This document shows, in pieces, positions 11,461-36,329 of a DNA stretch of 41,717 nucleotides. Each line of letters starts with the position of its first letter. The first letter of the stretch is position 1. The notes under the pieces were generated by a model, which was given only the letters and a program-made list of their open reading frames with translations, had not been told where the DNA came from and made no database searches. Made by a program: the position numbers and the translations under genes. The DNA comes from a virus, in the IMG/VR virus record IMGVR_UViG_3300017746_000034, positions 1 through 41,717 of that record; one strand, written 5' to 3'.

Positions 11461-11506
11461 TAAGACTAAAATTTTGAGTTTTTTATACAGGAAAAATGTG
11501 CATATT

Positions 11507-11535
11507 AAAACACGTTTTAATAATTTAGATAAATA
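11507..11535 (+). promoter_or_regulatory. Late promoter with palindrome (gp25 operon)
   Basis: AAAACACGTTTT (11507-11518), 9 bases, GATAAATA (11528-11535), then 5 bases and the gp25 ATG. The 12-mer is the exact reverse complement of the one at 1531-1542, and the spacing is identical. In T4 late promoters transcription begins about six bases past the box, so RNA would start at or next to the ATG. Confidence 0.75.
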
Positions 11536-11540
11536 TCAGT

Positions 11541-11954: not shown

Positions 11955-11961
11955 GTAGAGT

Positions 11962-14900: not shown

Positions 14901-16380
14901 AAGAGAAAGATTAGACGAAAATATCAAATTTGATATCTCAGATAAATTCACATATTCAGATGGATATATAGATTATAGAAAAATTGAAGTGTTGCCAGTC
15001 GATACAGACTTTGATGGTGTACCAGATGAGCCACTAGCATTCAGTAGATTTGTAGATCCAGATGATTTAGTATTTTTTGAAAATCAAAAAGACTTGCAAG
15101 GTAACGATTTTATTAGACCTATTAAGACTGGTATATTAGATTACAGAGCAGAAACAAGTGCTATAGTAGATTTCTTAAATGAAAACTTGGCACCAGGATC
15201 AAATGTGTTAGACCAAACAGACTTTACTAAGTTTGCATTAATACTTGTACCTACAAAAACTTTTGCTCAAACATACTTAACAAACAACAAAGCAAAATTA
15301 CACGGTAAGAAAGTGTATGTAGCAGATACTAAAAAACTGTTTGATTTACAAATTGAATTTTCAGATTCAACTAATGTTATATTAACAGACAGTCAAAGTT
15401 ATACTGTGAAGAACGGAAGATCCTTTACACAGAATACTAATACTACATACCGCCCAGTTAGTTTTAAATGGGAACACGTTGCACCCAGTGACGTTAGAAT
15501 AGATCCAAGTATTAGTAACATTGTAGAAATGTTTGTTTTAACAAGAACATATTATTCAGAAGTTTTAAAATATAAAAACTCAACAGAGTTAGGTAAAACT
15601 TTCCCACTAGGTCCAACTTCTGAAACACTATCACAAAACTTTAGTGAATTAGAAAACTACAAAAGTATTTCAGACCAAATAGTATATAGAAGCGGAAAGT
15701 TTAAAGTGTTATTCGGCACAGAAGCACTTCCAGAATTACAAGCAACATTTAAAGCAATCAAATTGCCAAATGTTACAATTAGTGATAACGAAATCAAGAG
15801 TAGAGTGAAACAAGCAATAGACCAATTCTTCAATATACAAAATTGGGATTTCGGTGAAAGTTTTTACTTTACAGAATTAACAGCATACGTTCATACTCAA
15901 ACAAATGATATATTAGGTAGTTTAGTAATAGTACCTAAAGACCCAAGCAGAAGATTTGGAGACTTATTTGTTGTAAGGTGTGAACCAGACGAAATATTTA
16001 TGAGTACAGCAACAGTTAGTGATATTAAAATAGTATCAGACTTTAACCAAGAAACTTTACAGCAAATTGGTTCAGCAGTACAAGGTTCAACAGCAGGAGC
16101 AACTGCTGATAATGGACCGTATGCAATTAACGGATACTATCCTTTATACGCAACAACAGACGCGGCGTCAGAGGCGGGAGACGGTACAAGTCATCCGCAC
16201 ACATTCTTTGGACAAACGTTCTATATGCCTAATGGTGTAACTTATTACCACGGTACTTATAACGTAAGTAGCGATGGTCTAAATAGTAGTAACACAGGCG
16301 GTTCGAGTAGTAGTAGTAGTAGCGGCGGCAGTAGCGGATCAAGTGGTAGCAGTGGAAGTAGCGGAAGTGGTGGATATTAA
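11962..16380 (+). CDS. 6: gp6-like baseplate wedge protein (Baseplate_J), enlarged
   Basis: 1472 aa against 660 in T4. The N-terminus (FNTIRQSMITYIRENYPEKF, then ESSEFIAIIELLAYLSQNLA) and the segment near residues 410-445 (AESIQSIKQRAPQVYQSQDR, then DYNVYPY) are typical of gp6/Baseplate_J wedge proteins. Residues about 1280-1370 give the family C-terminus (NWDFGESFYFTELTAYVHT, then VVRCEPDEIF). Between them are several hundred extra residues, including two calcium-loop-like motifs, D789-T-N-A-D-G-V-G-D and D1014-T-D-F-D-G-V-P-D. After the family end comes a tail with S-H1411-P-H1413, YMPNG and YYH1430G, then 27 Gly/Ser/Tyr residues (1446-1472). It would make the wedge dimer that rings the baseplate. 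Its stop overlaps the giant gene start (TAATG). Confidence 0.88.
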   Translation: MAQDIRQNNLFAAEDWQTAYKAFTNVDFKAYDFNTIRQSMITYIRENYPEKFNDYIESSEFIAIIELLAYLSQNLAFRVDLNTRENFLATAESRESVLRLAKMLGYAPKRNTASSGIMKVTAIQTTQNVADSFGRSIANERINFDDATEAESYDKFISVMNAAFTSFNKFTKPVAKETIGGISSELYQINSVPGTNVTFPFSLNLSNTGVPFEMVSTQFSENKAFQEQAPDPDAPFQIIYRNDGRGLSGSNTGFFMMFKQGSIAYQDAIFDKPIKNNQVTVSQSMINESDVWVQEINSAGEVLSQWTKVPNLIGQTLFYNNLKLDNKRVFAVDSGFEDNITIKFADGNFGAIPVGTYRMWHRSSAGTYQTINPTDAVDKQINIPYTDSNGDQQVLTMFCSLQYTVSNGTPAESIQSIKQRAPQVYQSQDRMVSAQDYNVYPYAVNNNILKLKAINRTHSGHSRFIDINDPTGKYQSVTVYGEDGLLYKEDAKDVNTIDIEGSTNLSEVVESSITSKLNNSHLNNFIYEDYRNVHLTDNSLVFDLTRNYTVIKWVSQPNRATSTTGYLTIDTGGTPVVLKNNQVGDVFRQIQENARIKFTSPTDSTKYRWVVIKDIQNNGGLITSSSAGKGPITMSTSLENGWRATELVVSIQSNLLTNITSEVSDELTAKRDFGLGYNPNPSGASQTHFFVINNSILQKDAEYSADLSTGACWIAKFEYEEGSSDDDYSYKMTTRGKKLLFESYEDVEFIDADENYTVDPATGNVKKDVIEILDNNSKPSIEETYYWVDTNADGVGDAWQLKDTNNYYTPTGNSPEIVLKNRDVRANELSIKMISNFGLLQGGDANVSVSDTYSGNEFISPVTVEMSVNGQTNSNGQAVVKPNSGKITNLPNSVEIPLSKFPSNIQGGANANIAYVFTDLSGVNTFRGNVSTTSLQRANAQIQGSIDVTSSTTIKVNEFDSKRTLGLGNQDVLKVKYSDTRERLDENIKFDISDKFTYSDGYIDYRKIEVLPVDTDFDGVPDEPLAFSRFVDPDDLVFFENQKDLQGNDFIRPIKTGILDYRAETSAIVDFLNENLAPGSNVLDQTDFTKFALILVPTKTFAQTYLTNNKAKLHGKKVYVADTKKLFDLQIEFSDSTNVILTDSQSYTVKNGRSFTQNTNTTYRPVSFKWEHVAPSDVRIDPSISNIVEMFVLTRTYYSEVLKYKNSTELGKTFPLGPTSETLSQNFSELENYKSISDQIVYRSGKFKVLFGTEALPELQATFKAIKLPNVTISDNEIKSRVKQAIDQFFNIQNWDFGESFYFTELTAYVHTQTNDILGSLVIVPKDPSRRFGDLFVVRCEPDEIFMSTATVSDIKIVSDFNQETLQQIGSAVQGSTAGATADNGPYAINGYYPLYATTDAASEAGDGTSHPHTFFGQTFYMPNGVTYYHGTYNVSSDGLNSSNTGGSSSSSSSGGSSGSSGSSGSSGSGGY
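16297..16377 (+). repeat. Gly/Ser low-complexity tail of gp6
   Basis: 27 codons, almost only Ser (AGT/AGC) and Gly (GGC/GGA/GGT), in short SSG/GSS units ending in GGY. It follows a His-containing segment (H1411, H1413, H1430) and forms the extreme C-terminus of gp6. The GGTGGA near its end also lies where a ribosome-binding site for the giant gene at 16380 is needed. Confidence 0.9.
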
Positions 16381-19300: not shown

Positions 19301-22300
19301 ACACGACGGTAGTTATACTTCTAGAGAAAATAATAAAGTAGATGATATTTTACTGCATTTTGAAAAATTAATATACAATAGTGTTTCAAAAAATATTAGA
19401 GAAAGAGATACCATAAGCAAATACTTAACTATAGATGATGTAAATCCTAGTTACTTTGCAGAAACAGATTTTAAAAAGAACGAAATTGATAGTGTTATGT
19501 TTACAGGCTTCTCAAGATGGGCAAGTCAAAACAATGTAGACTTTGTAACAAACACCACAGTTGATAGTGCAGATCCATTTACTTGGAACTACGGAGAACT
19601 AGGACATTGGAGAAATATATTTGAGTACTACTATGGTACACAAACTCCTAACACTACTCCTTGGGAAATGTTTGGATTTGACAGTATGCCAACTTGGTGG
19701 GTATCACATTATGGTAGTACAACTGTAACCAGTAGTAGTACAAGTTTTTGGACAAACGTATCAACAGGGTTTATTCCAGAAGGCGAAAGAAAAGGATATC
19801 ATCCAAGATACAAAAGAGAAAACATTTTGTCTTTACTGCCAGTGGACTCCAGTGGCAATTTAGTTGCACCAAATGTAAGCATTGCAACTAGTGTTACATC
19901 TAGTTCAGATGTAATTAATGACCCTTGGTCATTCGGAGACGGTGGACCAGCAGAGCAGGCTTGGAAGAAAAGTTCAGCATATCCATATGCAGTTGTAACA
20001 GCATTGTTCTTAACAAGACCAGGTGAGTTTGTAAAATACTATTTAGATCCAGAACAAATATTAGAACCTACTGTATTACCACAGCAACTTGTAGATAAAA
20101 CTACTAAGAAGAGAATTGCACATAACAAACTTACTTTCCACGGTGGTTTAGAAGCAGATAATACAACAAGAATTTTAAAAATAGGTTTCAGTCCTATATT
20201 AGACAGTTGGGTTTCTTCACAAGGATTAGACACTCACGTTCAAGTTCAACAAACTGTACAAAACACAGATGTTAAACTAGGGCATAAACACAGTGGTTTT
20301 GTTAACCTTAATGACATTAAACTTTACAGTGATAAATTAAGTATTGACGGATTTAGTACTGGTGAAAAAGTACCGTCAGAAGATGTTTACACAGGATTAC
20401 ATACTAGTGGTGTAATTGCAAGAAACTTTTATAGTGGTGTAAAGATTACTAAGACAGCAATAGGCTATCAGGTAAATGGATATGACAAAAGTAATAATGT
20501 GTTTAACATATTAGAGAGTGACGTAAATGGCGGCTCAGCAGGAATCAAAGTAGGCGGTACTGCTATTATACCTGCAATATTCAGCATAGGCGGAACATAC
20601 AATCAAAACGATATCATAAGTTATAACGGTAATTATTATAAAGCAAAAACTAATTTAGATTCTGGAGACTTTGACTTTGCTAATTGGACCCAAGTTACAG
20701 ACTTGCCAAAAGAAAATACGCAAAGTGGAATATATTATAACAATACTACAGGAATTGTCAAGCAGATAACATACGGACATACTTTCCCTGATATTAATTC
20801 AACATTTGATTTCTTAATAAGTTTAGGAAGATATCAAGAAAAATTAGGTTTCGACTTTGGCGATTACAATGAAACTATCGGAGATGTAGGTAACTGGATT
20901 TATACAGCAAAACAATTTTTATTCTGGGTAGACAGTAATCCAGCAGTTGGTACTATAACAGCATTTAGTCCAATGGCAGAAAAATTAATGTTTGAATCTG
21001 CAATAGGCACAGTTAATCAAATAAACAAATTTACAAAAGGCATACCATCATTTATAGACGCAGATGGTTCAGTACTTAATCCTAAAGAATGTGGAATAAG
21101 CAGAAGTGGAAGACAGATTACAATAACACCACCACAAGGAAAAAGTATTTACGGTGTTTTACTATTAACAAGTGTAACAGAACACGCAACTGTTATTAAC
21201 AATAAGAGTGTGTTTAACGACACAATCAATAATGATATTTACAATATTAGGCAAGAACGTTTAAGATTAAAAACACAAATTTCTAGAGAGTGGGACGGAT
21301 CACTTAATGCTCCAGGTTATATTATTACACCAACTCAAATAATGCCTAACTTTGAAAACTTAGTAGAAGCAACTAGAAATTATCATCAAATGTTTAGTAC
21401 TCCTACATTGCCAATCAAACGAACATTAGCAAGGTCATTGTTTGGATATAATGACACACAATATTTAGATAATTTAGGTATTGAAGAAGATGAACAAGTA
21501 GAATTAATGAAAGGTGCTATTAGAGCCAAAGGTACAGTAGCAGGTTTAAATAGAATACTGAGAAGTGATAGTATTAACACAAATAAAGATTTCACAGTAT
21601 ACGAAGAATGGGCAGTTAAGCAAGGTAACTTCGGAGACATCAGTTCTAACAAAAGTTTTGATTTAATTCTTAACAAAAAAGACTTTGTAAGAGACCAACA
21701 ACTATTAGAACTTAAATTTCCTGAAAGTGTAACAGGTATTGTTTCAGCAATTAATATTGTAGAAAAGAGTACACAATACTTTGCACCACCAATTATTGAA
21801 GTAGATAAACCACCAAGAGAAGTATCAGGTTTAAGTGGTGCTGGAAATGGTAGAGCATTAGCAAGTGCAACATTGTTAGCAGATGGTACATTGGGTACTA
21901 TTAATGTAGACTACAAAGGTTTCAATTACGACAATGCACCTAATGTAACAGTTATAACAGGAAACTTGTATGTTTCTAAAATTGATGAAGTACTTACAAA
22001 CGGCTTAGTAATGAGTAGCAGTTTAGTTCCGCAACCATTCAGCAATGTAGGGTTAAGCAATCTAGTTGTTACTGACCACACAAACGGTGGAACAATTACA
22101 ACAAACGTCGGCGCAACAACAAGTTTAAGCAACTTGGTAGTAGCATTTAATATTCAAGCAGATGCAATTAGTAATGCCAATGTAGTGGCGGCAACAGAAT
22201 TTACAAACTCAGTTGGCCCTATGTTCCTAAAACTTGCAGGTAGCGACTTCACAGTAGCAGATGACGATTCAGGAACAACATTAAGTTACTTGAATATTGC

Positions 22301-25300
22301 GGCAGGAAGATATCAACCAAAACAGAAATTTAAAATTGAAGTTGCAAACAATACAACAATAGATAATATTGTTACTTCAATTGACAACACCATAGTTAAC
22401 CAGTCTTATTATTCTTATATGGATAGTTCAAGACACACAGTACCTTCTAACATTACATTATACACTAATTATGTTAGTAATGATGCATTCACAATTAAAC
22501 GCACATTTAATAATATTGCACAAAACTTATCAACAACTGGCGGAAACTATGATTATATCAGTGCTTATATAGATGGCACACAGATTACAAATGATGCAGA
22601 CTACACTAGACTTACTGTTAGTAATGCTAGTGGATTAGCACAATTAGAATTTTCAAATATTAGTACATTAGTAAACTATACAACATCTTCTGAGGTGTTA
22701 ATTGTAGAAGAAGCAAGTATTACATTTGATACGTCTTTAACAACAGATGTTCCTGGTAGTAATGTAGAAGTAAAAGTCGAATCTGACGACAGGTTAGTGG
22801 CAGTACCAGGCACGACCAGAACCTATGCCATTAGCGAAGACGACCCAAATGACAATGTAGTTACAATAGATATTGATGACAAGTCTAGATTTGTAAAACG
22901 TCCAACAACTGAAGATTTAAATATTAAATTATATCCTTCGAGTAAATTTGAAAAGACAAGTACACTGATTAAGAACAGTGGATTTGTACACAAAGATAAT
23001 GTAGACATACAGGTGTTTGATATTAATCACTTCGATAGAGAAGTAAGTGCTAATACAAAAATTATGTTAAACGGCAACGATGTTGTACATATGGCTAAAG
23101 GCGAACACGACAACTTCGATGTTTATCAGTTGAGAAGTTTGAAGGACGAAACAGGATTTAACAACTTTTATATAAATCAGATAACTGACGGAACAAGTAA
23201 ATTGTTCAGTCCTATCAGTTTACAGGAGTTTAATGATAGTAATATTATAAACGATCCTGAAAATAAAACTTATTTTGATAATACATTGTATATTAAAAAC
23301 AGTCAATTGCCTAACGCAGTTGTAAAATATACAAACGAACAATTGGTATTAGATAATAAATCTATTTACAGAGGAGTTTATAATCCACCGCCAACAACAC
23401 AAGGATTAGTAACTAGAATTAAACCAAATAGAACTGCAAACATTGTAGGTGTATATCCAGATGTAACAAGTGAATTTAAACTTGTTAGTTTGAGACTAAA
23501 CAATGTTAACGGAGATGCAACTATTGCCAGTAACGTAGCCATTGCGGCAAACGTAGACGGACAAAATAATGTTGCAATTGGTATAAGCAAAATTGACGGT
23601 GTTCAAGATAACAGTAAGATTAGATTCTACGGAGATGACTTAGCATCAACAGGCATATCAAATGGTGCTACAAAAGTGTACACAGTTCAAAGTGTAGTTT
23701 ACGACAAAGACAGTTTTACAATTAACGAACCTAATGCAAGTGTACAAGTAGGACAAATAACAAGTTTAGGAAATATTGATATTAGAAGTACTGAAACTAT
23801 AAATGCAACACCTGGTTTAGTAGCAGGAACTTACCCAGTAGGCATTACAGAAATTTCATCTGATGGTGCAGGTACAGGATTAAGTGCAAGTGTTGTAGTA
23901 GGCGGATCAAGTAGTGTTACATCTATCACAGTTACAACAGCAGGTCAGAATTACTTGTTTGATGAAGAAATTAAAATACCAGAAACTTCATTAGGTGGTA
24001 GTGATGCTAATATATTTGTTTTTGCAAATGTAACAGGCACAAAAGATAATTCAACAGTTATAAGAGATAATTCAAATGTATATGCAGTTGTAAGTAATCC
24101 TATTCAGGGCGGTAGTAATGCCCAACCAACAGGATTTAGTTTTAGTAATAAAAGAGTTAAATTCTTAGTAGATGAAATAGGCGACTTTGAAAATAGTGCA
24201 GATGTAAATGTCACACAAGGTAAAAATGATACTTCAATGAGTATGTTAGATGCATACGGTGACTACACAATAGCAGACGTAAATACAAGTGCTAAAACAT
24301 TTAGTGTAACATCAGATGTTATTAGATTCAAAGACGTTAGTGTATCCAGACCAATAACTAACAGCAAGTTAGTTAGTATTACTGCAAACGGCGATGGCAC
24401 AGGTAATGCAGAAATGACACTGAATACTGTGATGCCAACAAATACATTTATTAAGTTAGACAGTGGTAAATCAAACGCAACCTACCCAGTTTGGAAAGAT
24501 GATAGAAACAATAAAAAATTATATTTCTATGATAACACTTTTGTAACCACAGTAAATGGAAATACAGCATTTTATAAAGGTGAAGTAACCACACAATATG
24601 CTACAGTAAATTCATATGATGCAGGTAACAACAAGTTTATTTTAGCAAATGTTAGTACTACTGCTTTAGGTACAAATTACGCAAACGTAGAGTTTGTACA
24701 CGCAGACATAGTAAACGGAAAAGGCGAATGTGGAGACATAGTTGGTTTAACAGGGAAAAGAAAATCATTAACTATTGAAAGTGCTTCAACAATGAGTTTG
24801 CCAGATTCAAATGCTGTAGACATTACACCATCATTTAGTGTTAATGCAGTAAACGATACAACAGTATCTGCAAACAGCAATGTAACAGTTTTATATTTCC
24901 CACAAAACGATGCACAAAACACAGTGGATCAATTAATAGATGACTTTGCAACTACTCAGCAACAATCTGCAGAAATAGAATCAGTTCCATATAACCAAGC
25001 ATATATGACAACTGCTAATACAGAAAACCCTAGTGTAGAATTATTACTAGACGGTAAGGCAGGAAAACTAACATCTATTGATGATATTGTGTTAGGTTTT
25101 GACATCAAGTATTTAGATGAAGAAACAGACAAAGCATTTAAAGAAGAATTAAAAGAAGCAACAGGCGAGCAAACTAGAAGAATTATAGAAAACTACTATG
25201 TGAACAAAGCCAAAAGTATTGACCAACCTTCCTTAGAAAACTTAACAATTAGTTTACAAAGTGTAGGTGGCAACGAAGTAGGCTATCACTTAATCAAAGA

Positions 25301-28300
25301 TGGTTCGCCTTTGAAAGTAAATGACGAAAGCAACAAACAAGTAATTGCTGGAGTACAAAAAACTCCAACAGATGGACTCAAATATGACCCTAGTGGTGTA
25401 GGCGGGTATAAACAAGATGCTACAGCAAAAATCAATCAAGAAATTAAACTAGCATTTAGTGATGACTACAAAGAACCTAAAACTTCTAACGGCGACTTGA
25501 TAGAATATGTAGATACTATTCCTAGAATTAATCCTACAGTTTCTACCACAATAGTTGATAGATTTAAATTAAAAGGTATGGCAACTACTACACAAACTGG
25601 TACAGTAAACAGATTGGGTGTTGCTAATAAAATTAAATTAACTGAACTTGTTAGAAGAGTTAAAAACGGTAATAGAGGATTTGATGGACAATTTGTTATT
25701 AAATTTGAATTTAAAAATGGCGACAGTTTTACATATGATCCATTAAGTAATGAGTTCTCAGGATACAGAAATGCTATTGTAAGAGTTAATCACGTTAAAG
25801 TAAACTACTCAGTAACAAGTAATGATCCAGGGTTAGTAAATGATGTAAGAGTTTCATTATACGATCCTGCAGGACAGATTGTAATACCTAATACAAGAGT
25901 TAAAGAAGCATTTGCTAGTGGACTAATAATTGAAGATTCAATCCCTGCAGATGACGTCACAGGTAATCTTAAAGCAGTTGTGTGGAGTAAAGACTCTGAA
26001 ACAGGAGACTTTATATTTGCAAGTTCATTTACTGAAAGAGCATTTAGACCTAGTGAATCTGATAAAGGTGTAACAGTAGGTAAAATAGTTTCTAGTGATG
26101 CTACAGCAGTTGATATTTATAATAACTTCCATACAGCAGTTGTACTGAATAACAACAGAGCACACAATGTAGAATCTATGGCATTGAGGATTAAGAATCC
26201 TGCATCATATGATCCATTTAAAATGTTTGGTGCAGATTTAACACCAAGCAGTTTAAAATACCTAGTAGTCAGAAACAGCAAATATACTTTAGAAAATGCA
26301 GTAATGCCAACATTTAAACTTAAAACACAAAGCATCACAGATGATGTGTTTATGTTTGGAGATACTAAAGGCTTAAACAATGGCGATAAAGTAAACTTTG
26401 ATGATTTAATATTCAGTGGTGCAAGTCCATTTGATGTATCAGGCGGATTTACAATAGCAGATTTAGAAAGCGATAAGTTTTCAATTAGCGGTATAACAGG
26501 AACTGCATTTGCAGACTATTACGCAACAAGTTTAACATCTTTGAATATGCTTGTCAAGAACAGCAACAGCAAAGCATTTTTAATTAACCATAACAATCAC
26601 AACTTGCAAAACGGCGATATTGTTGTAATCAACGACACATCAGGTACAAGTGCATTTAGTAATGTTAAGTTTAGAATTAATAATGTAACAAGTAAAGACA
26701 CTTACTTTGTTGGTTTAAATGGAACTACAGCACCTACAAGTAATATTGCAGGACTCAAAGCATTTACTACAACACCGCAAATGATGTTCGGCACAATTAA
26801 AGCAAATTCAGAATCATTAGTTGTATACAGCAACAATCATAAAATGCTAAGTGGTATGCAATTTACAGCCTATGCAGATAGTCCAGATCCAGCATCGCTG
26901 AATGGACAAACATTAACTGTTAATGAAGCATACTCGCAAGATGCTTTCTCAGTTGTTGTTTCAAATATTGATTTAATCACAAATAATTCTGCAAACTTAA
27001 CTTATGTTTCAGATGGTACAAAATTAGTATGTAGTTATTTAGGTAGAAATTTACCAGTACACGACCAAGAATTTATGGTATACGATCCGTTAAACGAAAT
27101 AGGATTAGACGGAGAAATATTAACAGCAAATGTTTATTATTCAGATACAGAAGATGATAGTGCTGTGGAAGGTGATGTATCATTTGACTTGACAACACCA
27201 ATTGCAAGAACAATTACTGCTAACACATTAATACTTAAACATTATGAAGATAGTGTGTTGCACGTTCCAAGTCACGGTATGTTCCAACATACTGTTAGTA
27301 CTCCAGTTTTATCAACTGGCACACCAGATGCAAACAACAATGTTTCTGTAACAGTAAATGACTTAACCTATTTTGAAATTGGTAATACTGTGTTGTTCGA
27401 TGATGCAAATGTTGACCATCCTTTAAGTTCTAACAGTTATGATATTATTGATGTAAACGAATCAAACAACACATTTATAATTGTTGATTCTACTGGAACT
27501 GCTACTGCTACTGCAAACATATTTAGAGTAGAAACAGATGCATATATTACTAACTCAGAAAGAGTTATACAAATAGGCGATACAAGTTTATATGACGGAT
27601 TTGCAAATCCAAAAATTGTAACCAAAGATACAATGAGTATCAAAGGAAGATTTAAAGGAACAGCAACAGGTTACATCACTAATGATGCAATGACAGTATT
27701 TGTAAACGGTGATGTAAATGAATTAAACGGTGATGCATTAGTTATATCAGATTGCCCACAAAATTATTACAACAGAGTATATCCTGTATTAAGCAGTTAC
27801 ACAGAAGATAATAGTGCAAATATATTTGTTGTAAGAGGATTTGCTCAAAACAATTTAACATTAGAATTAGCAAACACTCAAACTAGATATACTAACACCA
27901 ACAAAAATAGAATTACAGTAAACGGCTCATCAATTAACTTGGTTAATACAGATTCAATGACAAACTTTGTGAAGAGTTTTAACCAATCAGTTATAGACAG
28001 AGAAGGTGCTATTGTTGACAGTGAAGATGGATTACAAGTTGCATTCTTATATGGTAGAAGAAATCAAGAATTTGAAAACAACGGCAGTAAGTATGTTAAT
28101 GCTCCAGTTGACACATCAGGATTAAAAGTACAAGTAGATGTAAATGCTAATCCTAATATGAATCCTGGAGGAGACGATGTACTGAGTGCAAATAGATACT
28201 TACCACTAAACAGTCAAATTATAAATGCAAAAGGCCCAGCAAGTAAAATTGGTATGCCAATGCTGGACTTAGATAGATTAGAAGGTGCATTTAAATCACA

Positions 28301-31300
28301 ACGTAAGGCGTACAAGAACAAAAAACGTATACCTACAGAAAGAATTTCCAGCAATGCTTTAGATAACAATGCTAAAAACAGTATGGTGCTTAAAGAACAC
28401 GACAAGTGGGTTAACGGCTATGTACAAAATTCAGATGTAACAGAAAACCCAGATGCAAGACAACCATTATCATTCAAGATTAAAACATACAACAAAGTAG
28501 CAAAACAAGATTACTTTATTGACGATACTGAAACAAGTAACGAGTATGCAAGTAGTCCGATTAAGTTTGGTGGTGATGCTGGAAACAATAAAGCAATGCA
28601 AGGGTTCGGAGAAAGAGGCTACAGACCTGCTGGTGGTCCTGGAAACTATGATTATCAAAGTCATACATATATGCAATACAATGGACACGGCGAGCCAGGT
28701 TACTTTGGACCAGGTGACCAACAATACATTGGCGCCGGCGGCGGCGGCGGAGGTGGTACCCACGTAGGAGGAAGAAATCACGGCGGCAATAATACAGGCA
28801 ACGGTAATAACGGAAATAATCAAGGCGCAGGTACAGTTGCAGGTAACGAAGTAGATGTAACAGTTAATCAGCAATATGTTGTAGAACTTGCAGGTAACTT
28901 ATGTACACAGTCCGGAGAGATATTAGAATTCAGCGATGGTACCCAAGTAACATTAGGCGAAGGGTGTGATGTAGAACAGTTAGCCGCATTATTGGCTTCA
29001 CAAAATCCTAATTACACTTATATTACAACAAATACAACACCTCAGGAACCTTGTGTTGAAACACCAGCACAGGCAATGGGACACGCAAAAGTAGATGCAA
29101 GATTTAAAGATGCTCTAAAACGTTACGGTGGAGACAATCAAAGAGGTGCAAGTAGACCATCATATAGAGCAGACGTCAAAGACTTTGGAGTTATTACAAG
29201 CAAAGCGGCGAGTAGACATAGTTGGAATGAGTGGGACGTCAGAAACTTTGTTGAAACAGTTAATAATATTGCAAATGCAGAAGGCATTGATGTAAATAGA
29301 TTCCCAACAAGTTATGGAAAAGACAAGTACTTCTCAACAGGAAAAGGCGGTGTATGGATAGAGTGGGAAGGAACTCACAGAAGTGAGATACAGATTTTAG
29401 GCTCCAGCGGGTTATGGAAAAGAAAAGGTACAATGGGATATAAAGGAATTAGTAAATCCAGAGGATACATTTTCTTTAGAAATCCAAGAAGTATGTTAAA
29501 TGACCAAGACTTTGCTGGTGCAGTAATGGGTTGGAAAATTCACCAAAAGTCATACAATGTAGGTTATAACAAATATACATTATACATTGGTGGTGCAGGA
29601 CAGCCTGTGGTGAGTATTCCATTATTTAAATCCAACTACTTCCAATCAGGAGGTGGCGATGGTAGTTCATATATGCGTAGATTTGTACGTGAAAGATTTG
29701 ATGCAGGTACTGGAACTTATACAGTAAGTGTTACAGGATCACAAGCACCAGGGTTTAGACAAAATAGTGTTGTACACGAATATCCAAGAGCAACAAAAAC
29801 AAACAACTGTCCTCCACCACAAGAACCAGGTGCAGGAGGCAACAACGGATTACAACAAGTTGGTGCAAGAAATTTAAACAACAGTATAAGAATCAAGAGT
29901 GACTTGCCATTTAGTTTAGCAAAAGGTTGTAGTTTTGGTAGCATAAGTGAATGTGCTGAATTTTATCCAGTACAAGAAAGAAACTTAACAACTAACTTTG
30001 ATCCACAACAAGCAAAAACAGAATTCCAGAAACTGCAAACACAAGGCTTCTATGATAAGACTTTAGAAATAAGTGCAGACAGTGAAGATCCTAGACCAGA
30101 AGCAGGATTTGGTGGATTTGCTTTCCCAACTAAGTTAGGTTTACCTAGTGTATATCCAGACTTTGTTGCAGGCGGTAGATTAATTTCACCTAGAGAAATT
30201 ACAAACACTAAACATAAATTTGTTAATGGTAGATTTGTAGGTAGCACTAATAAAAGAGACAGCAGATTTGTAATGCTGGAACCACCAGAAGTACCAACAG
30301 GAAACTTATCAGACGGTAGTGGATTTGGTTACAGAATTGGAGACCAAGTTGTTGCAACAGGTGGTAGACCTAAGAGTGTACAAGACGATGACTTTATGTT
30401 AAAGAGTGTTGACATAGCACAATCTATACCTTTAAGAAATATTGCATTATCACAAGAACTTGTAGACTTACCAATTGAAGAATTAAAACGTAGATTATCT
30501 TTTGAGATAGTAGACAGCAACAGTAACCCAATTCCAGGTGTTGCTATTAAGCCAACATTTAATGCTGTACACAATGCAGAAGATTTTGAAGAAGCACAAC
30601 ACGATAAAACAATGGTTAGTCCAAGTGGTGTTGCTGTTATGAATTACAGAGATTACATTTATGCTGGAGGAGATACTTCAGCAGATTGGGACTCACCTGC
30701 TTATGCTGGAGTTAGAGAACAATACAGAAACTTAGGATTAAGTGATATTGCTTCTGTAAACTTTAGATTAGATGTAGGTGAAGGCAATGCAACCACAATG
30801 ACCATTGATAATATTAGTGGACAAAGTAAAAATTATGAAGTGTTTATAGGTAATTCAGATTTGCAATCAACATATTGTATAATTGGTAAAGTAGGTTACG
30901 GACATTTATTTGATGATGGATCAGAAGCAAGTCAAAGTGCTAGGTTTAAAAGTTTCGATGCTAGTTACTTAGATACATATGATGGAAATACTATTGCTGT
31001 GTGGGACACACAAGGTCAACCAGCATTAGAAACATTATTAGAAAATACCACAGTAGGTGCAGAAGGTATTTGGAAAATGGTCGGAGACTACAGCAACAAT
31101 CCAGACTTAGATAAAAAAGAACATTTATTAACAGTTGCGATGCTAAACTGGAACTCACGTTACGTTCAGTTCTTAGGATTCAAAGACCATAGAGCATACT
31201 TTAAAATGCTTACTGTTGGTACAGTTATTCCTACAAGCGAAGCAAGAAACGGATGGTATGAGTATGATGTTAAAAACTTATATGATCCTAAAAACAAATC

Positions 31301-34300
31301 ATTTAGAAAAGTTACTTCAAGATTCTATGCAATGCCTTTAGGAGCATCAACAGATGGTGCTAACGTAGGACATAAGAAATTTAGCCATACATCAAACGGC
31401 GGCGGCGTTGTAACACTAGACAAAGTTAGAACACTTACTGAAACTGCAAGAACAACACACTTAGAAAATATAGAAGCAGATCCAACAGGAAGTACATATG
31501 ATGCTGAGACAGGTGTAACAACAGTTGCTCCTTCAAGTGATAACTCATTTACACTGAACAACACAATTAGAACTGCACACCTTACAATAAGTGCAGGAAC
31601 AGATGTAAGCAGAGATTCAGAACAATTAGATGTTATGTTTATTGAAAATGACAACTACCTTAACGTTTTAAGAATACCAGTTACAGTACACAAAGCGGCA
31701 GAAGGCAAAACATCTAAACAAGTTGCAGATGATTACAACAAAATAGGTTTAAAACAATATCTAACAATATTCAACAAAGGTACAGGTACAAAAATTGGTG
31801 AAAGTAAAGCAGTTGTATATACATTTAACACTAACCACATACCAGATGGTGCAAAAATTACAGATGTTAAACTTAACATTCAATGGAAATCAAAAGATCC
31901 TTCAGAATGGGGTATGGTATGGTTACAAGCACCAGATGGAACAAGGTTGCCAGTACTACAGCCACTAGGAGAAGGTCTAATAGATGCAACTGGAACAACT
32001 ACAGGTATGTTTGGTTCGGATCATCAGGGTGGTGTATTCAAAGGATACGAAATTACTGAAAGAAGTTCAGGAAAATATCACAACTTTACTATATCAGGCG
32101 GTGTTGCTGACAACAATGTGTTTAAACCTGATGCAGAAACGTTCCCAGTAGACGGAAGAAACATAAGTCCAATACCAGGTAAACACAAACGTTACTATAG
32201 AGCAAAAGACAGACACGGATTTATAGGAACTGTGGATTACGACAGACCAAATACTCCAGCAAATACTATTTGGCAGGCAGAAAACATCATAAGAGAATAT
32301 ATTAGACAATATGATAAGAATGCTAAAGGTGAATGGAGAGTAGAAATTACTAGACCAGGTAGAAATTGGGACGACTGGAAGTATGAACAGCCAATTACTA
32401 AAAGAGATGCGGCAGGAAATGAAACTTTCGAGTATGGCCCACAAGATGTAAACGAAATATTTGCACCAAGATTAAAAATAAGTTATGCAGTTTATGTAGA
32501 AGGCGAAGCACCAACAAGTGTTGCTAACTCAGACGAAGCAATCACAGGATTTGAAATAACTAACCAAGGAATATACACACAATCAGAAATACAAACATTC
32601 GGAGCAATGAGTGTTAGAAGTACAGGTGTTATGGTTCCTGGCAGTATGTTAAGTGGCTCACAAGTAAAAGTTGAAAAAGGTAACGAACTAGATAAAGCAG
32701 TTAGAAATAGAACTGCTAAGTTTGTTATTACTGGTGTAAACAGTTTAGGTAGTATTACAAAATTAAGAATTACAGACAGAGGTACATATATTAACTTCCC
32801 ACCAGAAATGGAAAGAGGTGTATCTCTAAAATATGATGATGACTTTGCAAAAGGATTAGCAGGAACTAGACCAGAAGGATTAGGATACGGCGGTAGAGTT
32901 GCAATGACAAGTAGAAGTAAAATCAATTGTCAAAACAATCCACCAATATTCCCAGCACCAGGCGATAACATTGCAGTACTAGAACCAATTGCAGATGCTA
33001 TAGCAGATGGAATTAATGGAGCCGCTAGAGGTAACGTAGGTATACAAGCATTCAGTTATGATGTTAACCCTGCTGTTAGTGTGCTAAACATTGTTACTCC
33101 TGATGATGGAATGGAGTTTGTTGCACTTAACGGAGGATTTAATCCGTGGAGTTTCCCAGAAGGCGAAATAGATCCAGACTTAGTAGGTGTTAGAGCATTA
33201 GATGACTTCAATAATAGCATAGATGATACAAACAACTTATCACAATTTGGTAATTTGATTGATCCAACAACAGGTTTATCAATAGAAAGACTGAGAGAGT
33301 TAGGATTATTAAATGATGACGATGGAAGTGATGATGGTAAAGACGGGTTTACATTAATAAATGTAACAGATGCTCCAACAATTACAGGACTAGAACAAGT
33401 TACAACAACTAATATGTTCTCATATGACTTGTACACTTTAGATAATACATCAGTTGACGTTACAGGCACAACTTCAAATGTAGATCCTATGTACTTTAAG
33501 AGTGTGTTATTCAAAGATGACATTGTTATGGATAGGAATAATGCAAATGTTTGGGTAACTAATTTCCAAAACGCAGGTAGTGTGTACTATGAAAACGGTA
33601 ATATTGCTTTTAGAGAGAATAACTTAGTAGAAAGCAACAGAATGGAAAAGGCTGTTATATACGATTTAGATGATAACACCACAATTAAAGAATTAGAATA
33701 CATTGATCCGTTTAAAGATGCAATATCAAGCCAAGCAAAAATTAATTTAACTTATATCACAGAGTCAGATCCAGTTGTTTATCAAAACAATGGATCAAAC
33801 TTCAGCAACAATAATACTGGTGAACTATGGTGGGACACTTCAACTTGTAGAAGTTTATGGTATGAGCAAGGTAATGTAACATACAGAAGTAGAAATTGGG
33901 GTAAATGGCATCCAGGAAGTAGTTTTGATGTTTACGAGTGGACAAGAAGTGCGTACTCACCGAGTGATTATGTGAGAAACGGAGGAGAAGGTACTCCTAG
34001 AAACAACACAGACTTCGTATTAGTTAAAGAATTTAATTTAAGCAACAACGCATATCAAAATGTTTATTACTTCTGGGTTAAAGATGTTAATACTGTTCCT
34101 GCTTTAGAAGACAGAACAATGAGTGCTAGAAGTGTAGCATTACAAATAGAAGATCCAATTAGTTTAGGACTTCCATTCTATGCACCAGTTAGCAACACAA
34201 CTATAATGGTTCAGAACACAAAACGTTTCATTAAAGATGACAAAGTTGCTTTCCAAATGAATTACTCTGTAAAAGATACAAAGTATAACAAAAAACATTC

Positions 34301-36329
34301 AGAATGGAAACTATACAGAGAAGCAGATACATCAAGTCAAATCAGTACTGCAATAATTAACAAAATGATTGACAGTTTATGTGGTTATGATACAAACAAT
34401 AAAGTTGTACCAGATCCAGGATTGAACGAATTTGAGAAATATGGTTTAAGTATTAGACCAAAACAAACAATGTTTAAAGACTTGAAGGCGGCTAGACGTA
34501 CATTTGTAGAGTTTGTAAACAGAGAAGCATACAATACTGAACTAACAGATTCAAAATATAAGAATTGGAATTCAGATATTACAGATGATACTTACTTAGA
34601 GATTATAGATTGGATCAAACCTAAGTTTGATAAAACCAAAAAGCCAAGATATGTACTTAACCAGTTTAAGAAATTAAACTTTGCAGGTGAATTAAGCGAC
34701 GGCGATGTTGTAAGAGTAGATAATAAGAAAGATGCTTGGAAAGATTACGAATGGAGTCAAGCAAATCAAGAGTTTACTCACGTAAGGACTTACAATGCAA
34801 GTTATAAATTAAAAGATGTAGTGTTTACTACCAATAATACTTTGACACTTGCTACAAAACTTAGAACAATTATTAATTCCGTATTCAATAATTTGTATAT
34901 TCAAGAGAATGCAGTTAAGATTAACGAGTTGTTCTTCGCATTATTGCATTATGTGAACACAGAACAAGACGAAATTGATTGGGCATTTAAAACAACTTAC
35001 TTCAACATCAAACAAGGTGCTGATGAACTTGCTCAAACATTTATTTCAAAAGCAGATGCTTTCCCTAACGTAACAGAATTTGTAAACGAACAAAAACCAT
35101 TTACAAGTAAGTTAAGAGATTTCCAAGATGTTAAGAGTGTAAGCACAGAAATTATAAGAAACAGCAGTTCAGACTTTGATAAACCACCTTATCAGCCTAA
35201 TCCAAACAACGATGCTATTGTGTTAGATGTAGAAAATGTAACACATTCAAACATTATGTTGACAGATCCTGATTACAAGTATTGGTTTGCTAACTTTAAC
35301 AAAGCAGACAGCAAGGTAAGAACATTTAATCAAACTATTAATATTGATAGAACCAGTTTTGTTATAAGTGAAACAAGAAAAACAGAATTACTTGGAGGAT
35401 TCAGTCCAGTAAATGCCGCAGAAAGAATATTCTTATATGATGTAGACGTTGCTAAACTGAATACTGCAATAGCAAATCCAGGTAACATTTATAGTGCGGC
35501 AAGTATTACAGCATTTAAGATTGAAAGAGATGCTTTAATTAAAACCAAAGTAGGTGCAGACTTTAAAGGATTAGATTTAGATGCTGGTAAGTTTGTAGAC
35601 AATATTATAAACGCAGGTGGCGACGATGAATTAGTAGCAGTATTAGGTTGGGATAGTGCACCATATGATATTGGAGACTTTGACCAAATAATAGAAATTG
35701 AAAACTATGACGGAGTATTTGGAAACAACGGCAACTTAACTATTGCTGGAGTCAAATACGAAGGCTTAGGCGGAACATCATTTACTAAGATAGATGGTCC
35801 TGATAGACCAGAAGAATTAATAATGGTTGGTCCAAAAGAAAACTTAATTATTAACGTTGATACATTTGCAAGTGGCAGTGGATCAAGTACTAAGACAGTA
35901 AGTTATAGAGCACACATAGATATGTTTGGTAAAACAAACTATTATAGATTGGGTAGTGCTAACAGCACAACAATTAGTGCTAATATAACATCAAACGATA
36001 AAGATATTTCAGTAACAAGTACAACAATGTTTGGTCCTGTTTCCCCAGGAAATCCAGGATACGCATTTATTAATGATGAAATGATTAAGGTAACAAGAAT
36101 TGATGGTAACACATTGGTTGGCGTACAACGTGGCTTTAATGGTACAACTATAGGCGTTCATACATCAGCAGATAAGATATATAACGCAAATAGTAGTGTA
36201 ACATTAAATCAAGAAAATGTCAATGCAAACGTGTTGCTTTGGAACACAAACATAACTAATACTACAAATAGTAACCCAGGTGCAGTCTTCTTGCAAGACG
36301 ATGATAACCCAGGAGGTTATATTTCCTAG
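16380..36329 (+). CDS. Giant baseplate/tail structural protein (gp7 position), 6649 aa
   Basis: One uninterrupted frame of 6649 codons in a TAATG overlap with gp6, where T4 has gp7 (about 1030 aa). The first 1750 residues contain signatures I associate with large structural proteins of marine T4-like phages: PTLPIKRTLARSLFGYNDTQ near 1680, then GAIRAKGT and YEEWAVKQGNFGD. Others occur near the C-terminus: NWGKWHPGSSFDVYEW (~5840), VPDPGLNEFEKYG (~6011), YLEIIDWIKPKFD (~6072), EIDWAFKTTYFNIKQG (~6197) with EQKPFTSKLRDF (~6240), and an INDEMIKVTRIDGNTLVG unit near 6565. The 4000 residues between are mostly short beta-rich segments rich in Asn/Asp/Thr. Two CBM5/12-like motifs lie at 591-623 and 1407-1439, and a Gly-rich region at 4075-4156. 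No protease or signal peptide is evident. Baseplate wedge or long fibre scaffold is inference. Confidence 0.85.
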   Translation: MSNKPYDLLPIQFQSETNQTFFENTVDQLFKKANTEIVDGLIGRKIPGTDSPQRADFIEHNDTGRNFYTLEPTYTSTEQVSGVPGNFVFYEDLLFSLKSYNAFVNNHNRLFKSKQFTYSPPIDIDKFVNYQNYFWIPENLDIVRIYGSADSTINIDAIPGSKTFVAPNGTELLNGSFVQFTGTHVSGSTYLKDTTYQVEGVGQHIRLLVPDTKDKISAYATFDSIAFDADWDGIGSFSGAGLTYDSDNINPSLYSFDNQPYDAVSNQREADYLLQQRGAKNHNPWSRLNYWYHIQTIQQSRIVSTQVPNPWDTTSYDSTSYDYEFVEGKAVGSIPENAIRATRPIIEFNRDLELYNYGNDFNTYVDVVVNEPRNQIDDKLPMGNPINGTTTAVGKKAIFTANESGAFIYDIVDTGSGNVSFTANSSITIALSDTFLVQEGADIGAEYYWDGTWKKAQFKDKVNLAPKFKLYDDAGVPLDDTTTYPSSTFKGNELFSYKINNLNANDSILNFSVDRRSGQYSSDMLFENDISKDIFNYVPTGSTTKSVIPGYYYAKDLTYDFNGNKNERYIHSWMPNDVPSFYLTFDISRNYKQGQCVSYNKQFFTAKADITAGNFDITEWDLVQENFSVQVVRDEYFITEANKTSKRFDISATPIDEQVDVFVNQRKLVKDTDFTVVSNKDGILFTNTPALNSLVTIKTTTNSDVDLTQQGRFELPSALSHNVENKSITEFTTSDVLSHYLGLIEDQTTFKGNALGINNYSNSERIHTGNNAKIRQTFSDLPTAMLLSRGSVLNLIEALRYSEVEYNKFKNRLKGKVKNYVTNNTIQGKTDSQIFEDVYAELIATRTNDTAFNRTYMLPWGTEYEEKEFTANIDTTTFTTTVSANLEQMNNFVSVYKNDELQTIDTDYTVTSSVPVVVSMTSVAANDKIKIRAYQDSSPSNIPFTPSALGLFAVKEPGFITDTSYTSNLDVICGHDGSYTSRENNKVDDILLHFEKLIYNSVSKNIRERDTISKYLTIDDVNPSYFAETDFKKNEIDSVMFTGFSRWASQNNVDFVTNTTVDSADPFTWNYGELGHWRNIFEYYYGTQTPNTTPWEMFGFDSMPTWWVSHYGSTTVTSSSTSFWTNVSTGFIPEGERKGYHPRYKRENILSLLPVDSSGNLVAPNVSIATSVTSSSDVINDPWSFGDGGPAEQAWKKSSAYPYAVVTALFLTRPGEFVKYYLDPEQILEPTVLPQQLVDKTTKKRIAHNKLTFHGGLEADNTTRILKIGFSPILDSWVSSQGLDTHVQVQQTVQNTDVKLGHKHSGFVNLNDIKLYSDKLSIDGFSTGEKVPSEDVYTGLHTSGVIARNFYSGVKITKTAIGYQVNGYDKSNNVFNILESDVNGGSAGIKVGGTAIIPAIFSIGGTYNQNDIISYNGNYYKAKTNLDSGDFDFANWTQVTDLPKENTQSGIYYNNTTGIVKQITYGHTFPDINSTFDFLISLGRYQEKLGFDFGDYNETIGDVGNWIYTAKQFLFWVDSNPAVGTITAFSPMAEKLMFESAIGTVNQINKFTKGIPSFIDADGSVLNPKECGISRSGRQITITPPQGKSIYGVLLLTSVTEHATVINNKSVFNDTINNDIYNIRQERLRLKTQISREWDGSLNAPGYIITPTQIMPNFENLVEATRNYHQMFSTPTLPIKRTLARSLFGYNDTQYLDNLGIEEDEQVELMKGAIRAKGTVAGLNRILRSDSINTNKDFTVYEEWAVKQGNFGDISSNKSFDLILNKKDFVRDQQLLELKFPESVTGIVSAINIVEKSTQYFAPPIIEVDKPPREVSGLSGAGNGRALASATLLADGTLGTINVDYKGFNYDNAPNVTVITGNLYVSKIDEVLTNGLVMSSSLVPQPFSNVGLSNLVVTDHTNGGTITTNVGATTSLSNLVVAFNIQADAISNANVVAATEFTNSVGPMFLKLAGSDFTVADDDSGTTLSYLNIAAGRYQPKQKFKIEVANNTTIDNIVTSIDNTIVNQSYYSYMDSSRHTVPSNITLYTNYVSNDAFTIKRTFNNIAQNLSTTGGNYDYISAYIDGTQITNDADYTRLTVSNASGLAQLEFSNISTLVNYTTSSEVLIVEEASITFDTSLTTDVPGSNVEVKVESDDRLVAVPGTTRTYAISEDDPNDNVVTIDIDDKSRFVKRPTTEDLNIKLYPSSKFEKTSTLIKNSGFVHKDNVDIQVFDINHFDREVSANTKIMLNGNDVVHMAKGEHDNFDVYQLRSLKDETGFNNFYINQITDGTSKLFSPISLQEFNDSNIINDPENKTYFDNTLYIKNSQLPNAVVKYTNEQLVLDNKSIYRGVYNPPPTTQGLVTRIKPNRTANIVGVYPDVTSEFKLVSLRLNNVNGDATIASNVAIAANVDGQNNVAIGISKIDGVQDNSKIRFYGDDLASTGISNGATKVYTVQSVVYDKDSFTINEPNASVQVGQITSLGNIDIRSTETINATPGLVAGTYPVGITEISSDGAGTGLSASVVVGGSSSVTSITVTTAGQNYLFDEEIKIPETSLGGSDANIFVFANVTGTKDNSTVIRDNSNVYAVVSNPIQGGSNAQPTGFSFSNKRVKFLVDEIGDFENSADVNVTQGKNDTSMSMLDAYGDYTIADVNTSAKTFSVTSDVIRFKDVSVSRPITNSKLVSITANGDGTGNAEMTLNTVMPTNTFIKLDSGKSNATYPVWKDDRNNKKLYFYDNTFVTTVNGNTAFYKGEVTTQYATVNSYDAGNNKFILANVSTTALGTNYANVEFVHADIVNGKGECGDIVGLTGKRKSLTIESASTMSLPDSNAVDITPSFSVNAVNDTTVSANSNVTVLYFPQNDAQNTVDQLIDDFATTQQQSAEIESVPYNQAYMTTANTENPSVELLLDGKAGKLTSIDDIVLGFDIKYLDEETDKAFKEELKEATGEQTRRIIENYYVNKAKSIDQPSLENLTISLQSVGGNEVGYHLIKDGSPLKVNDESNKQVIAGVQKTPTDGLKYDPSGVGGYKQDATAKINQEIKLAFSDDYKEPKTSNGDLIEYVDTIPRINPTVSTTIVDRFKLKGMATTTQTGTVNRLGVANKIKLTELVRRVKNGNRGFDGQFVIKFEFKNGDSFTYDPLSNEFSGYRNAIVRVNHVKVNYSVTSNDPGLVNDVRVSLYDPAGQIVIPNTRVKEAFASGLIIEDSIPADDVTGNLKAVVWSKDSETGDFIFASSFTERAFRPSESDKGVTVGKIVSSDATAVDIYNNFHTAVVLNNNRAHNVESMALRIKNPASYDPFKMFGADLTPSSLKYLVVRNSKYTLENAVMPTFKLKTQSITDDVFMFGDTKGLNNGDKVNFDDLIFSGASPFDVSGGFTIADLESDKFSISGITGTAFADYYATSLTSLNMLVKNSNSKAFLINHNNHNLQNGDIVVINDTSGTSAFSNVKFRINNVTSKDTYFVGLNGTTAPTSNIAGLKAFTTTPQMMFGTIKANSESLVVYSNNHKMLSGMQFTAYADSPDPASLNGQTLTVNEAYSQDAFSVVVSNIDLITNNSANLTYVSDGTKLVCSYLGRNLPVHDQEFMVYDPLNEIGLDGEILTANVYYSDTEDDSAVEGDVSFDLTTPIARTITANTLILKHYEDSVLHVPSHGMFQHTVSTPVLSTGTPDANNNVSVTVNDLTYFEIGNTVLFDDANVDHPLSSNSYDIIDVNESNNTFIIVDSTGTATATANIFRVETDAYITNSERVIQIGDTSLYDGFANPKIVTKDTMSIKGRFKGTATGYITNDAMTVFVNGDVNELNGDALVISDCPQNYYNRVYPVLSSYTEDNSANIFVVRGFAQNNLTLELANTQTRYTNTNKNRITVNGSSINLVNTDSMTNFVKSFNQSVIDREGAIVDSEDGLQVAFLYGRRNQEFENNGSKYVNAPVDTSGLKVQVDVNANPNMNPGGDDVLSANRYLPLNSQIINAKGPASKIGMPMLDLDRLEGAFKSQRKAYKNKKRIPTERISSNALDNNAKNSMVLKEHDKWVNGYVQNSDVTENPDARQPLSFKIKTYNKVAKQDYFIDDTETSNEYASSPIKFGGDAGNNKAMQGFGERGYRPAGGPGNYDYQSHTYMQYNGHGEPGYFGPGDQQYIGAGGGGGGGTHVGGRNHGGNNTGNGNNGNNQGAGTVAGNEVDVTVNQQYVVELAGNLCTQSGEILEFSDGTQVTLGEGCDVEQLAALLASQNPNYTYITTNTTPQEPCVETPAQAMGHAKVDARFKDALKRYGGDNQRGASRPSYRADVKDFGVITSKAASRHSWNEWDVRNFVETVNNIANAEGIDVNRFPTSYGKDKYFSTGKGGVWIEWEGTHRSEIQILGSSGLWKRKGTMGYKGISKSRGYIFFRNPRSMLNDQDFAGAVMGWKIHQKSYNVGYNKYTLYIGGAGQPVVSIPLFKSNYFQSGGGDGSSYMRRFVRERFDAGTGTYTVSVTGSQAPGFRQNSVVHEYPRATKTNNCPPPQEPGAGGNNGLQQVGARNLNNSIRIKSDLPFSLAKGCSFGSISECAEFYPVQERNLTTNFDPQQAKTEFQKLQTQGFYDKTLEISADSEDPRPEAGFGGFAFPTKLGLPSVYPDFVAGGRLISPREITNTKHKFVNGRFVGSTNKRDSRFVMLEPPEVPTGNLSDGSGFGYRIGDQVVATGGRPKSVQDDDFMLKSVDIAQSIPLRNIALSQELVDLPIEELKRRLSFEIVDSNSNPIPGVAIKPTFNAVHNAEDFEEAQHDKTMVSPSGVAVMNYRDYIYAGGDTSADWDSPAYAGVREQYRNLGLSDIASVNFRLDVGEGNATTMTIDNISGQSKNYEVFIGNSDLQSTYCIIGKVGYGHLFDDGSEASQSARFKSFDASYLDTYDGNTIAVWDTQGQPALETLLENTTVGAEGIWKMVGDYSNNPDLDKKEHLLTVAMLNWNSRYVQFLGFKDHRAYFKMLTVGTVIPTSEARNGWYEYDVKNLYDPKNKSFRKVTSRFYAMPLGASTDGANVGHKKFSHTSNGGGVVTLDKVRTLTETARTTHLENIEADPTGSTYDAETGVTTVAPSSDNSFTLNNTIRTAHLTISAGTDVSRDSEQLDVMFIENDNYLNVLRIPVTVHKAAEGKTSKQVADDYNKIGLKQYLTIFNKGTGTKIGESKAVVYTFNTNHIPDGAKITDVKLNIQWKSKDPSEWGMVWLQAPDGTRLPVLQPLGEGLIDATGTTTGMFGSDHQGGVFKGYEITERSSGKYHNFTISGGVADNNVFKPDAETFPVDGRNISPIPGKHKRYYRAKDRHGFIGTVDYDRPNTPANTIWQAENIIREYIRQYDKNAKGEWRVEITRPGRNWDDWKYEQPITKRDAAGNETFEYGPQDVNEIFAPRLKISYAVYVEGEAPTSVANSDEAITGFEITNQGIYTQSEIQTFGAMSVRSTGVMVPGSMLSGSQVKVEKGNELDKAVRNRTAKFVITGVNSLGSITKLRITDRGTYINFPPEMERGVSLKYDDDFAKGLAGTRPEGLGYGGRVAMTSRSKINCQNNPPIFPAPGDNIAVLEPIADAIADGINGAARGNVGIQAFSYDVNPAVSVLNIVTPDDGMEFVALNGGFNPWSFPEGEIDPDLVGVRALDDFNNSIDDTNNLSQFGNLIDPTTGLSIERLRELGLLNDDDGSDDGKDGFTLINVTDAPTITGLEQVTTTNMFSYDLYTLDNTSVDVTGTTSNVDPMYFKSVLFKDDIVMDRNNANVWVTNFQNAGSVYYENGNIAFRENNLVESNRMEKAVIYDLDDNTTIKELEYIDPFKDAISSQAKINLTYITESDPVVYQNNGSNFSNNNTGELWWDTSTCRSLWYEQGNVTYRSRNWGKWHPGSSFDVYEWTRSAYSPSDYVRNGGEGTPRNNTDFVLVKEFNLSNNAYQNVYYFWVKDVNTVPALEDRTMSARSVALQIEDPISLGLPFYAPVSNTTIMVQNTKRFIKDDKVAFQMNYSVKDTKYNKKHSEWKLYREADTSSQISTAIINKMIDSLCGYDTNNKVVPDPGLNEFEKYGLSIRPKQTMFKDLKAARRTFVEFVNREAYNTELTDSKYKNWNSDITDDTYLEIIDWIKPKFDKTKKPRYVLNQFKKLNFAGELSDGDVVRVDNKKDAWKDYEWSQANQEFTHVRTYNASYKLKDVVFTTNNTLTLATKLRTIINSVFNNLYIQENAVKINELFFALLHYVNTEQDEIDWAFKTTYFNIKQGADELAQTFISKADAFPNVTEFVNEQKPFTSKLRDFQDVKSVSTEIIRNSSSDFDKPPYQPNPNNDAIVLDVENVTHSNIMLTDPDYKYWFANFNKADSKVRTFNQTINIDRTSFVISETRKTELLGGFSPVNAAERIFLYDVDVAKLNTAIANPGNIYSAASITAFKIERDALIKTKVGADFKGLDLDAGKFVDNIINAGGDDELVAVLGWDSAPYDIGDFDQIIEIENYDGVFGNNGNLTIAGVKYEGLGGTSFTKIDGPDRPEELIMVGPKENLIINVDTFASGSGSSTKTVSYRAHIDMFGKTNYYRLGSANSTTISANITSNDKDISVTSTTMFGPVSPGNPGYAFINDEMIKVTRIDGNTLVGVQRGFNGTTIGVHTSADKIYNANSSVTLNQENVNANVLLWNTNITNTTNSNPGAVFLQDDDNPGGYIS
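18150..18248 (+). other. Chitin-binding-like (CBM5/12-type) segment 1 in the giant protein
   Basis: Residues 591-623 read Y-K-Q-G-x-C-V-S-Y-N...F-F-T-A-K...W620, the Tyr-Gly-x-x-V-x-Tyr...Tyr/Phe-x-Ala...Trp pattern of small carbohydrate-binding modules. Whether it binds sugar is unknown. Confidence 0.5.
20598..20696 (+). other. Chitin-binding-like (CBM5/12-type) segment 2 in the giant protein
   Basis: Residues 1407-1439 repeat the same pattern with a better match: Y-N-Q-N-D-I-I-S-Y-N-G-N-Y-Y-K-A-K...W1436. The two segments have the same length and the same aromatic positions, so they are probably copies of one domain type. Confidence 0.55.
28602..28847 (+). other. Gly/Asn-rich linker region in the giant protein
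   Basis: Residues 4075-4156 are dominated by Gly, Asn, His and Tyr (for example GYFGPGDQQYIGAGGGG and NTGNGNNGNNQGAG). The local base composition is more GC-rich than the surroundings (a run of GGC/GGA codons at 28732-28756). It divides the beta-rich middle from a following segment that contains several Cys residues. It may be a flexible hinge or the junction of an inserted module. Confidence 0.8.

Follow-up and report, generated by a model that had tools for sequence, protein, structure and literature searches.

Gp7 of phage T4 is a baseplate wedge protein, a six-copy monomer of three linked domains which contacts gp6, gp8, gp9 and gp10 and swings outwards upon triggering (PMC3004832). The T4 genes follow the order gp6-gp7-gp8, and the 1,032 aa of gp7 make it 6.4 times shorter than the giant protein described here, which likewise comes after gp6 (gp25-gp6-giant). 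In the Prochlorococcus phage P-SSM2 the order is gp25-gp6-gp7-gp8, and its gp7, with 5,195 aa, is a giant at the equal place. In addition, the jumbo phages hold a family, PHROG 10938, whose members PA5oct gp355, Atu_ph07 gp180, RaK2 ORF070, CBB_236 and SCTP-2 gp140 measure 3,326-4,449 aa and are encoded, as is the giant, directly after gp6. Databases name this family only 'virion structural protein'; its gene sits in the baseplate cluster. As regards length, huge-phage proteins of up to 7,694 aa were known in 2020, some of them tentatively annotated as structural (PMC7162821); their likeness to the present protein is one of size, and size alone is therefore not new. Literature searches for earlier accounts of a gp7-like giant among jumbo phages returned nothing specific.

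Genomic context of the giant gene

The DNA analysed (the window) is a stretch of 41,717 nucleotides of IMG/VR record IMGVR_UViG_3300017746_000034. It carries a T4-like set of genes, namely SbcD (gp47), gp55, a small wedge subunit, a gp5-like hub, gp25, gp6, the giant and a tail-fibre-like gene. The genes relevant here are the following:

2401 to 2697, + strand: small baseplate wedge subunit (phrog_7145)
5689 to 7701, + strand: gp5-like baseplate hub protein (phrog_13211; Pfam Phage_base_V)
11541 to 11954, + strand: gp25-like baseplate wedge protein (phrog_261, phrog_43)
11962 to 16380, + strand: gp6-like baseplate wedge protein, 1472 aa (phrog_10646, E 0)
16380 to 36329, + strand: giant open reading frame, 6649 aa, PHROG 10938 family, at the gp7 position (ORF call, profile match, orthologues, dN/dS)
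36368 to 36997, + strand: downstream gene, 209 aa, of the unknown-function family phrog_11259
37025 to 39175, + strand: downstream tail-fibre-like gene, 716 aa (phrog_19602 among weak C-terminal matches)

The arrangement is the same in PA5oct and close to it in Atu_ph07, SCTP-2, Vibrio phage 2.275.O, RaK2 and CBB. Over the first 733 codons of the giant, contig 3300047474_000200 (loci L014 and L191) does not differ from the window; it extends farther upstream, where it encodes gp46, portal gp20, prohead protease gp21 and major capsid gp23. Since portal, protease and capsid genes stand on this contig, the window is a fragment of a T4-related myovirus.

Two side observations concern the surroundings of the gene. 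The gp6-like neighbour is itself enlarged (1472 aa vs about 660 aa in T4), with a tail rich in Gly/Ser at its end, and the SCTP-2 gene at the gp6 place (L004:5609-14899) encodes 3,096 aa. Moreover, a gene for a late sigma factor of the gp55 type is present, yet the late-promoter motif TATAAATA is rarer in the window than chance, with 1 match (26114, minus strand) vs 6.7 expected.

Reality and intactness of the 20-kb frame

The giant frame runs uninterrupted from the ATG at 16380 to the stop at 36327-36329 and specifies, in 6649 codons, a product of 734 kDa with a pI of 4.9. In the TAATG at 16378-16382 the last base of the gp6-like gene's stop codon doubles as the first base of the giant's ATG, and a GGTGGA stretch lies immediately 5' of this start. 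When the window was shuffled 200 times with a first-order Markov model, the longest open frame obtained had 223 codons. Codon usage of the central block correlates with that of the N-terminal core at r 0.95-0.97 and GC3 stays at 0.19-0.24 along the entire gene, so that the single frame of about 19.95 kb, without stop and with matching codon use, that had been proposed in the preliminary description is borne out. Self-BLAST found no internal repeats in the protein.

The complete frame is also present in two further IMG/VR contigs, L007 (6645 aa, 92% identity) and L008 (6637 aa, 86% identity). All indels among the three orthologues involve whole codons, mostly within the Gly-rich aa 4061-4140, and dN/dS lies at 0.05-0.24 for all 250-codon tiles, including the part that is nearly an orphan (0.12-0.15). 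The frame is constrained by purifying selection from end to end. That it joined several genes through assembly error, an objection foreseen in the preliminary description, was checked and ruled out on these grounds: the probability of such a chimera, in favour of which the unusual length and nothing else can be adduced, is practically nil, given two more contigs of full length, in-frame indels, uniform purifying selection and the existence of relatives of equal length.

Two conserved cores and one variable slot

The profile of PHROG 10938 matches the first ~2,690 residues and the part from aa ~5,730 on, with E values of 1.4e-174, 1.2e-69 and 1.9e-78 on three segments. When the cores were delimited by BLASTP against six shorter relatives, two regions emerged, core N and core C, both of which align with the PHROG 10938 members named above at 25-34% identity and in the same order, and which enclose a variable slot. 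The anatomy of the protein is then as follows:

16380 to 21998, + strand: core N, aa 1-1873 (BLASTP to six shorter relatives; AlphaFold model of aa 701-1900)
20589 to 20651, + strand: CBM5/12 (chitin-binding-type) module within core N, aa 1404-1424 (Pfam PF02839; fold matches)
21999 to 33479, + strand: variable slot, aa 1874-5700 (length contrast with six relatives; 134 loci)
21999 to 23729, + strand: slot entry, aa 1874-2450, common to other members of the giant clade
23730 to 32579, + strand: nearly orphan inner slot, aa 2451-5400 (without matches save in contig L096)
28560 to 28799, + strand: Gly/Asn-rich linker, aa 4061-4140, an indel hotspot (orthologue indels)
32580 to 33479, + strand: slot exit, aa 5401-5700
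33480 to 35369, + strand: core C, aa 5701-6330, family-conserved (BLASTP, family ORF matches)
35940 to 36155, + strand: C-terminal module of ~72 aa, aa 6521-6592 (module HMM)

Tiles of core N match 70-160 family ORFs and core C matches at least 549 viral-contig stretches, the family being widespread. Accordingly, the likeness of the terminal parts to known phage structural proteins stands as first proposed, and the attribution to marine phages alone does not, the relatives being the jumbo phages PA5oct, Atu_ph07, RaK2, SCTP-2 and CBB. It is supported by these matches that the giant is probably a virion structural protein, detection in virions being that of homologues: the record of PA5oct gp355 is marked ESI-MS/MS, and CBB_236, identified here as a 3340-aa homologue, gave 21 peptides in the CBB virion proteome (PMC5259590).

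The AlphaFold model of aa 701-1900 (45 sequences; pLDDT 76) has a mixed alpha/beta globular core. In BFVD it matches proteins of its own family (from Atu_ph07 and uncultured phages), and in the fold search of the PDB nothing came up except chitin-binding domains and small beta domains of the tail-fibre type, none with E <= 0.001. The CBM5/12 module scores 27.3 bits against a Pfam cut-off of 26.2, and lower in shorter sequence contexts.

The slot is responsible for the difference in size. It spans ~165 aa in PA5oct, 200 in RaK2, 260 in Vibrio phage 2.275.O, 490 in SCTP-2, 620 in L015 and 1,530 in Atu_ph07, against ~3,830 aa in the window protein. The preliminary description had seen an added central region of some 4000 residues; the region is upheld, in the refined form of a defined slot (aa 1874-5700) with a nearly orphan interior (aa 2451-5400). 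This interior is without match in 50,697 phage records and without homologue among the fetched family ORFs, with the exception of the sister contig L096, which has 24% identity over aa 2502-3975. A stretch of the slot exit, aa 5444-5500, is common to the giants, and the most G/N/D-rich 60-mer of the whole protein starts at aa 4101. For aa 4180-5369, AlphaFold (three sequences) yielded a pLDDT of 26 and thus no confident inner-slot structure, and there was no PDB profile match. E1_FCCH-like beta repeats, picked out by eye at aa 2396-3820, were rejected, given that the repeats failed to recognise one another in leave-one-out HMMs and that the best Pfam score for E1_FCCH in the slot was 20.1 bits against a cut-off of 29.5. 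The beta-rich character of the added modules and the radial fibres, both proposed in the preliminary description, are accordingly conjectural.

Size range and origin of the giants

The protein is among the largest phage proteins on record, and it is neither unique nor the longest of its family. After merging contigs from overlapping loci, complete IMG/VR relatives of 7,914 (G003), 7,548 (G005), 6,778 (G004) and 6,539 aa (G012) were obtained, together with L096, of at least 4,996 aa. The 89 distinct complete homologues have a median length of 4,389 aa and a median slot of 698 aa; the slot-length distribution was taken over 134 loci picked by similarity to the query, for which reason such counts are not population frequencies.

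A tree was built from 867 core columns of 110 representatives. All 13 proteins with a slot above 2,000 aa (2.2-4.2 kaa) form one clade (SH-like support 0.995), and the remaining 97 have slots of up to about 1,700 aa; because the giants form a single clade, the slot expansion looks to be of single origin. The five relatives named above share the cores and the expanded slot with the window protein and differ in their inner slot content, most of which only L096 has in common with it. Once expanded, the slot seems to have turned over nearly all of its inner content, to the point that the lineage of the window and the sister subclade share only the slot's ends.

A different route to gigantism is represented by L171 (contig 3300032242_003199), a separate lineage with at least 6,099 aa (open frame 6,311), which combines a moderate slot of about 1,700 aa with a long N-terminal part ahead of core N.

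Relationship with gp7

The location at the gp7 position, as first described, agrees with the gene order of T4, P-SSM2 and PA5oct; identity with gp7 is not upheld, the relationship being positional, without any profile relationship or any fold relationship of aa 701-1900. In fact, BLAST, HMM and HHalign searches detected no homology with T4 gp7, the HHalign probability never exceeding 0.5% with either the nine regional profiles or the two core alignments, and T4 gp7 was not among the 50 best PDB fold matches of the aa 701-1900 model, the only part modelled for that purpose. Core homology between P-SSM2 gp7 and the giant was likewise undetectable by sequence profile. What these two proteins do share is slight, namely a weak match of the C-terminal module HMM in P-SSM2 gp7 (aa 71-126, a module of ~60 aa) and a weak chitin-binding-like stretch. 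Since gene order agrees but homology was not found, our claim is that the giant works at the gp7 position, not that it is a gp7.

Natural splits of the gene

In at least two cases the gene has apparently been split by nature inside the slot. On contig 3300017967_000052 (L109:6518-23134, L020:5258-14335) a first ORF of 5,538 aa holds core N and most of the slot, and a second, of 3,022 aa, the slot end and core C, both adding up to ~8,560 aa on one contig. The junction consists of TAA, an AAGGAG ribosome-binding-like site and ATG, and no single indel could join the ORFs because their frames do not overlap. On contig 3300009194_000009 (L036), also a single contig, the core N gene (2725-9228, 2,167 aa) is followed by the core C gene (9350-14278, 1,642 aa), separated by a GC-rich hairpin with a T run, which is terminator-like, a TATAAATA motif and an AGGAG site; the same motif occurs just 5' of the first ORF, its overall frequency in the locus being not above chance. 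A third candidate, L091:729-14350, has core N and core C apart in overlapping frames; in view of this overlap and of the matching contig L087, which is intact, a frameshift or an error of sequencing is the probable cause.

The two fissions belong to different clades of the tree, each nested among fused forms, and this speaks for a slot that is not part of the folded cores. From this we infer that the cores may be able to fold and function when not covalently joined, the slot being the breakable point of the chain.

Proposed role and alternatives

The explanation that we consider rather probable is that, in a T4-related jumbo-type myophage, the giant is a wedge-associated baseplate protein with two cores and an expandable slot which forms exposed arms. 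It is based on the gene order, the presence of relatives in virions, the purifying selection along the frame, the single clade of giants, the variability, content turnover and fission of the slot, and the adhesion-type modules, that is, the CBM5/12 of core N and a confident bacterial Ig/cadherin-like domain (E 2.5e-15) in the slot of L108. By analogy with T4 gp7, the cores would be baseplate-bound and the slot would be a projecting arm with a hinge. Core N, which adjoins gp6 and bears the chitin-binding-type module, would dock on the gp6 wedge and core C elsewhere at the baseplate periphery, while the slot would form a string of exposed domains, with the Gly-rich stretch at aa 4061-4140 as hinge, projecting as arms that may widen the baseplate or contact the host surface. 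With six copies, a gp7-like stoichiometry, about 4.4 MDa would be added per virion. Against the arm model stand the missing relationship with T4 gp7 in sequence and in the fold of aa 701-1900, the inner slot without confident structure, and the category 'head and packaging' given to PHROG 10938 by PHROGs, a label which does not fit the genomic position and was treated as an annotation default.

The same variability could mean that the slot is not mainly a structural arm and bears a payload, either enzymatic (a glycan depolymerase, for instance) or receptor-binding. Turnover of its content between subclades is what would be expected of host-specific parts, core N has a carbohydrate-binding module, and the slot of G003 gave a sub-threshold GLEYA-type match; nevertheless, no enzyme family was detected in the slots of the window and seven relatives, nor does aa 4180-5369 match any PDB profile, and this explanation is regarded as unlikely. 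The split genes, in turn, would suit a precursor cut in or near the slot, with the virion holding pieces of core N and core C, and the slot parts separate or removed: two relatives encode the cores as separate genes, so that continuity is unnecessary, and the T4-type protease gp21 lies upstream on the contig that is identical at the gene's start. However, searches of the giant protein revealed neither a cleavage motif nor a protease domain, purifying selection on the slot is the same as on the cores, and the known targets of T4-type proteases are head proteins, all of which makes a precursor quite improbable. Size alone would recommend a tape-measure protein, and the mixed alpha/beta globular core, the carbohydrate-binding module and the place after gp6 all speak against it; moreover, tail length would need to track a slot that varies about twenty-fold, so that this function is scarcely credible. 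The wedge-associated protein with exposed arms is thus the reading retained.

Conclusions

Two cores and one expandable slot show where the size of these proteins comes from. Four points appear to be new: the delimitation of the cores and of the slot between them, the grouping of the giants in one clade, the exchange of slot content and the fission of the gene in nature. Taken as a whole, the picture of an uncultured jumbo-type phage lineage with a two-part baseplate protein, whose slot underwent a single-origin expansion that gave rise to some of the largest virion proteins known from phages (6.5-7.9 thousand aa), with the interior replaced between subclades in the manner of a cargo bay and the parts also separable, is possible and is put forward tentatively. 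If true, it would supply a naturally occurring series of fused and split giants in which the assembly of such structural proteins into arms could be studied. Cultivated relatives, PA5oct and CBB among them, would allow direct tests of the roles of covalent continuity and of the arms.
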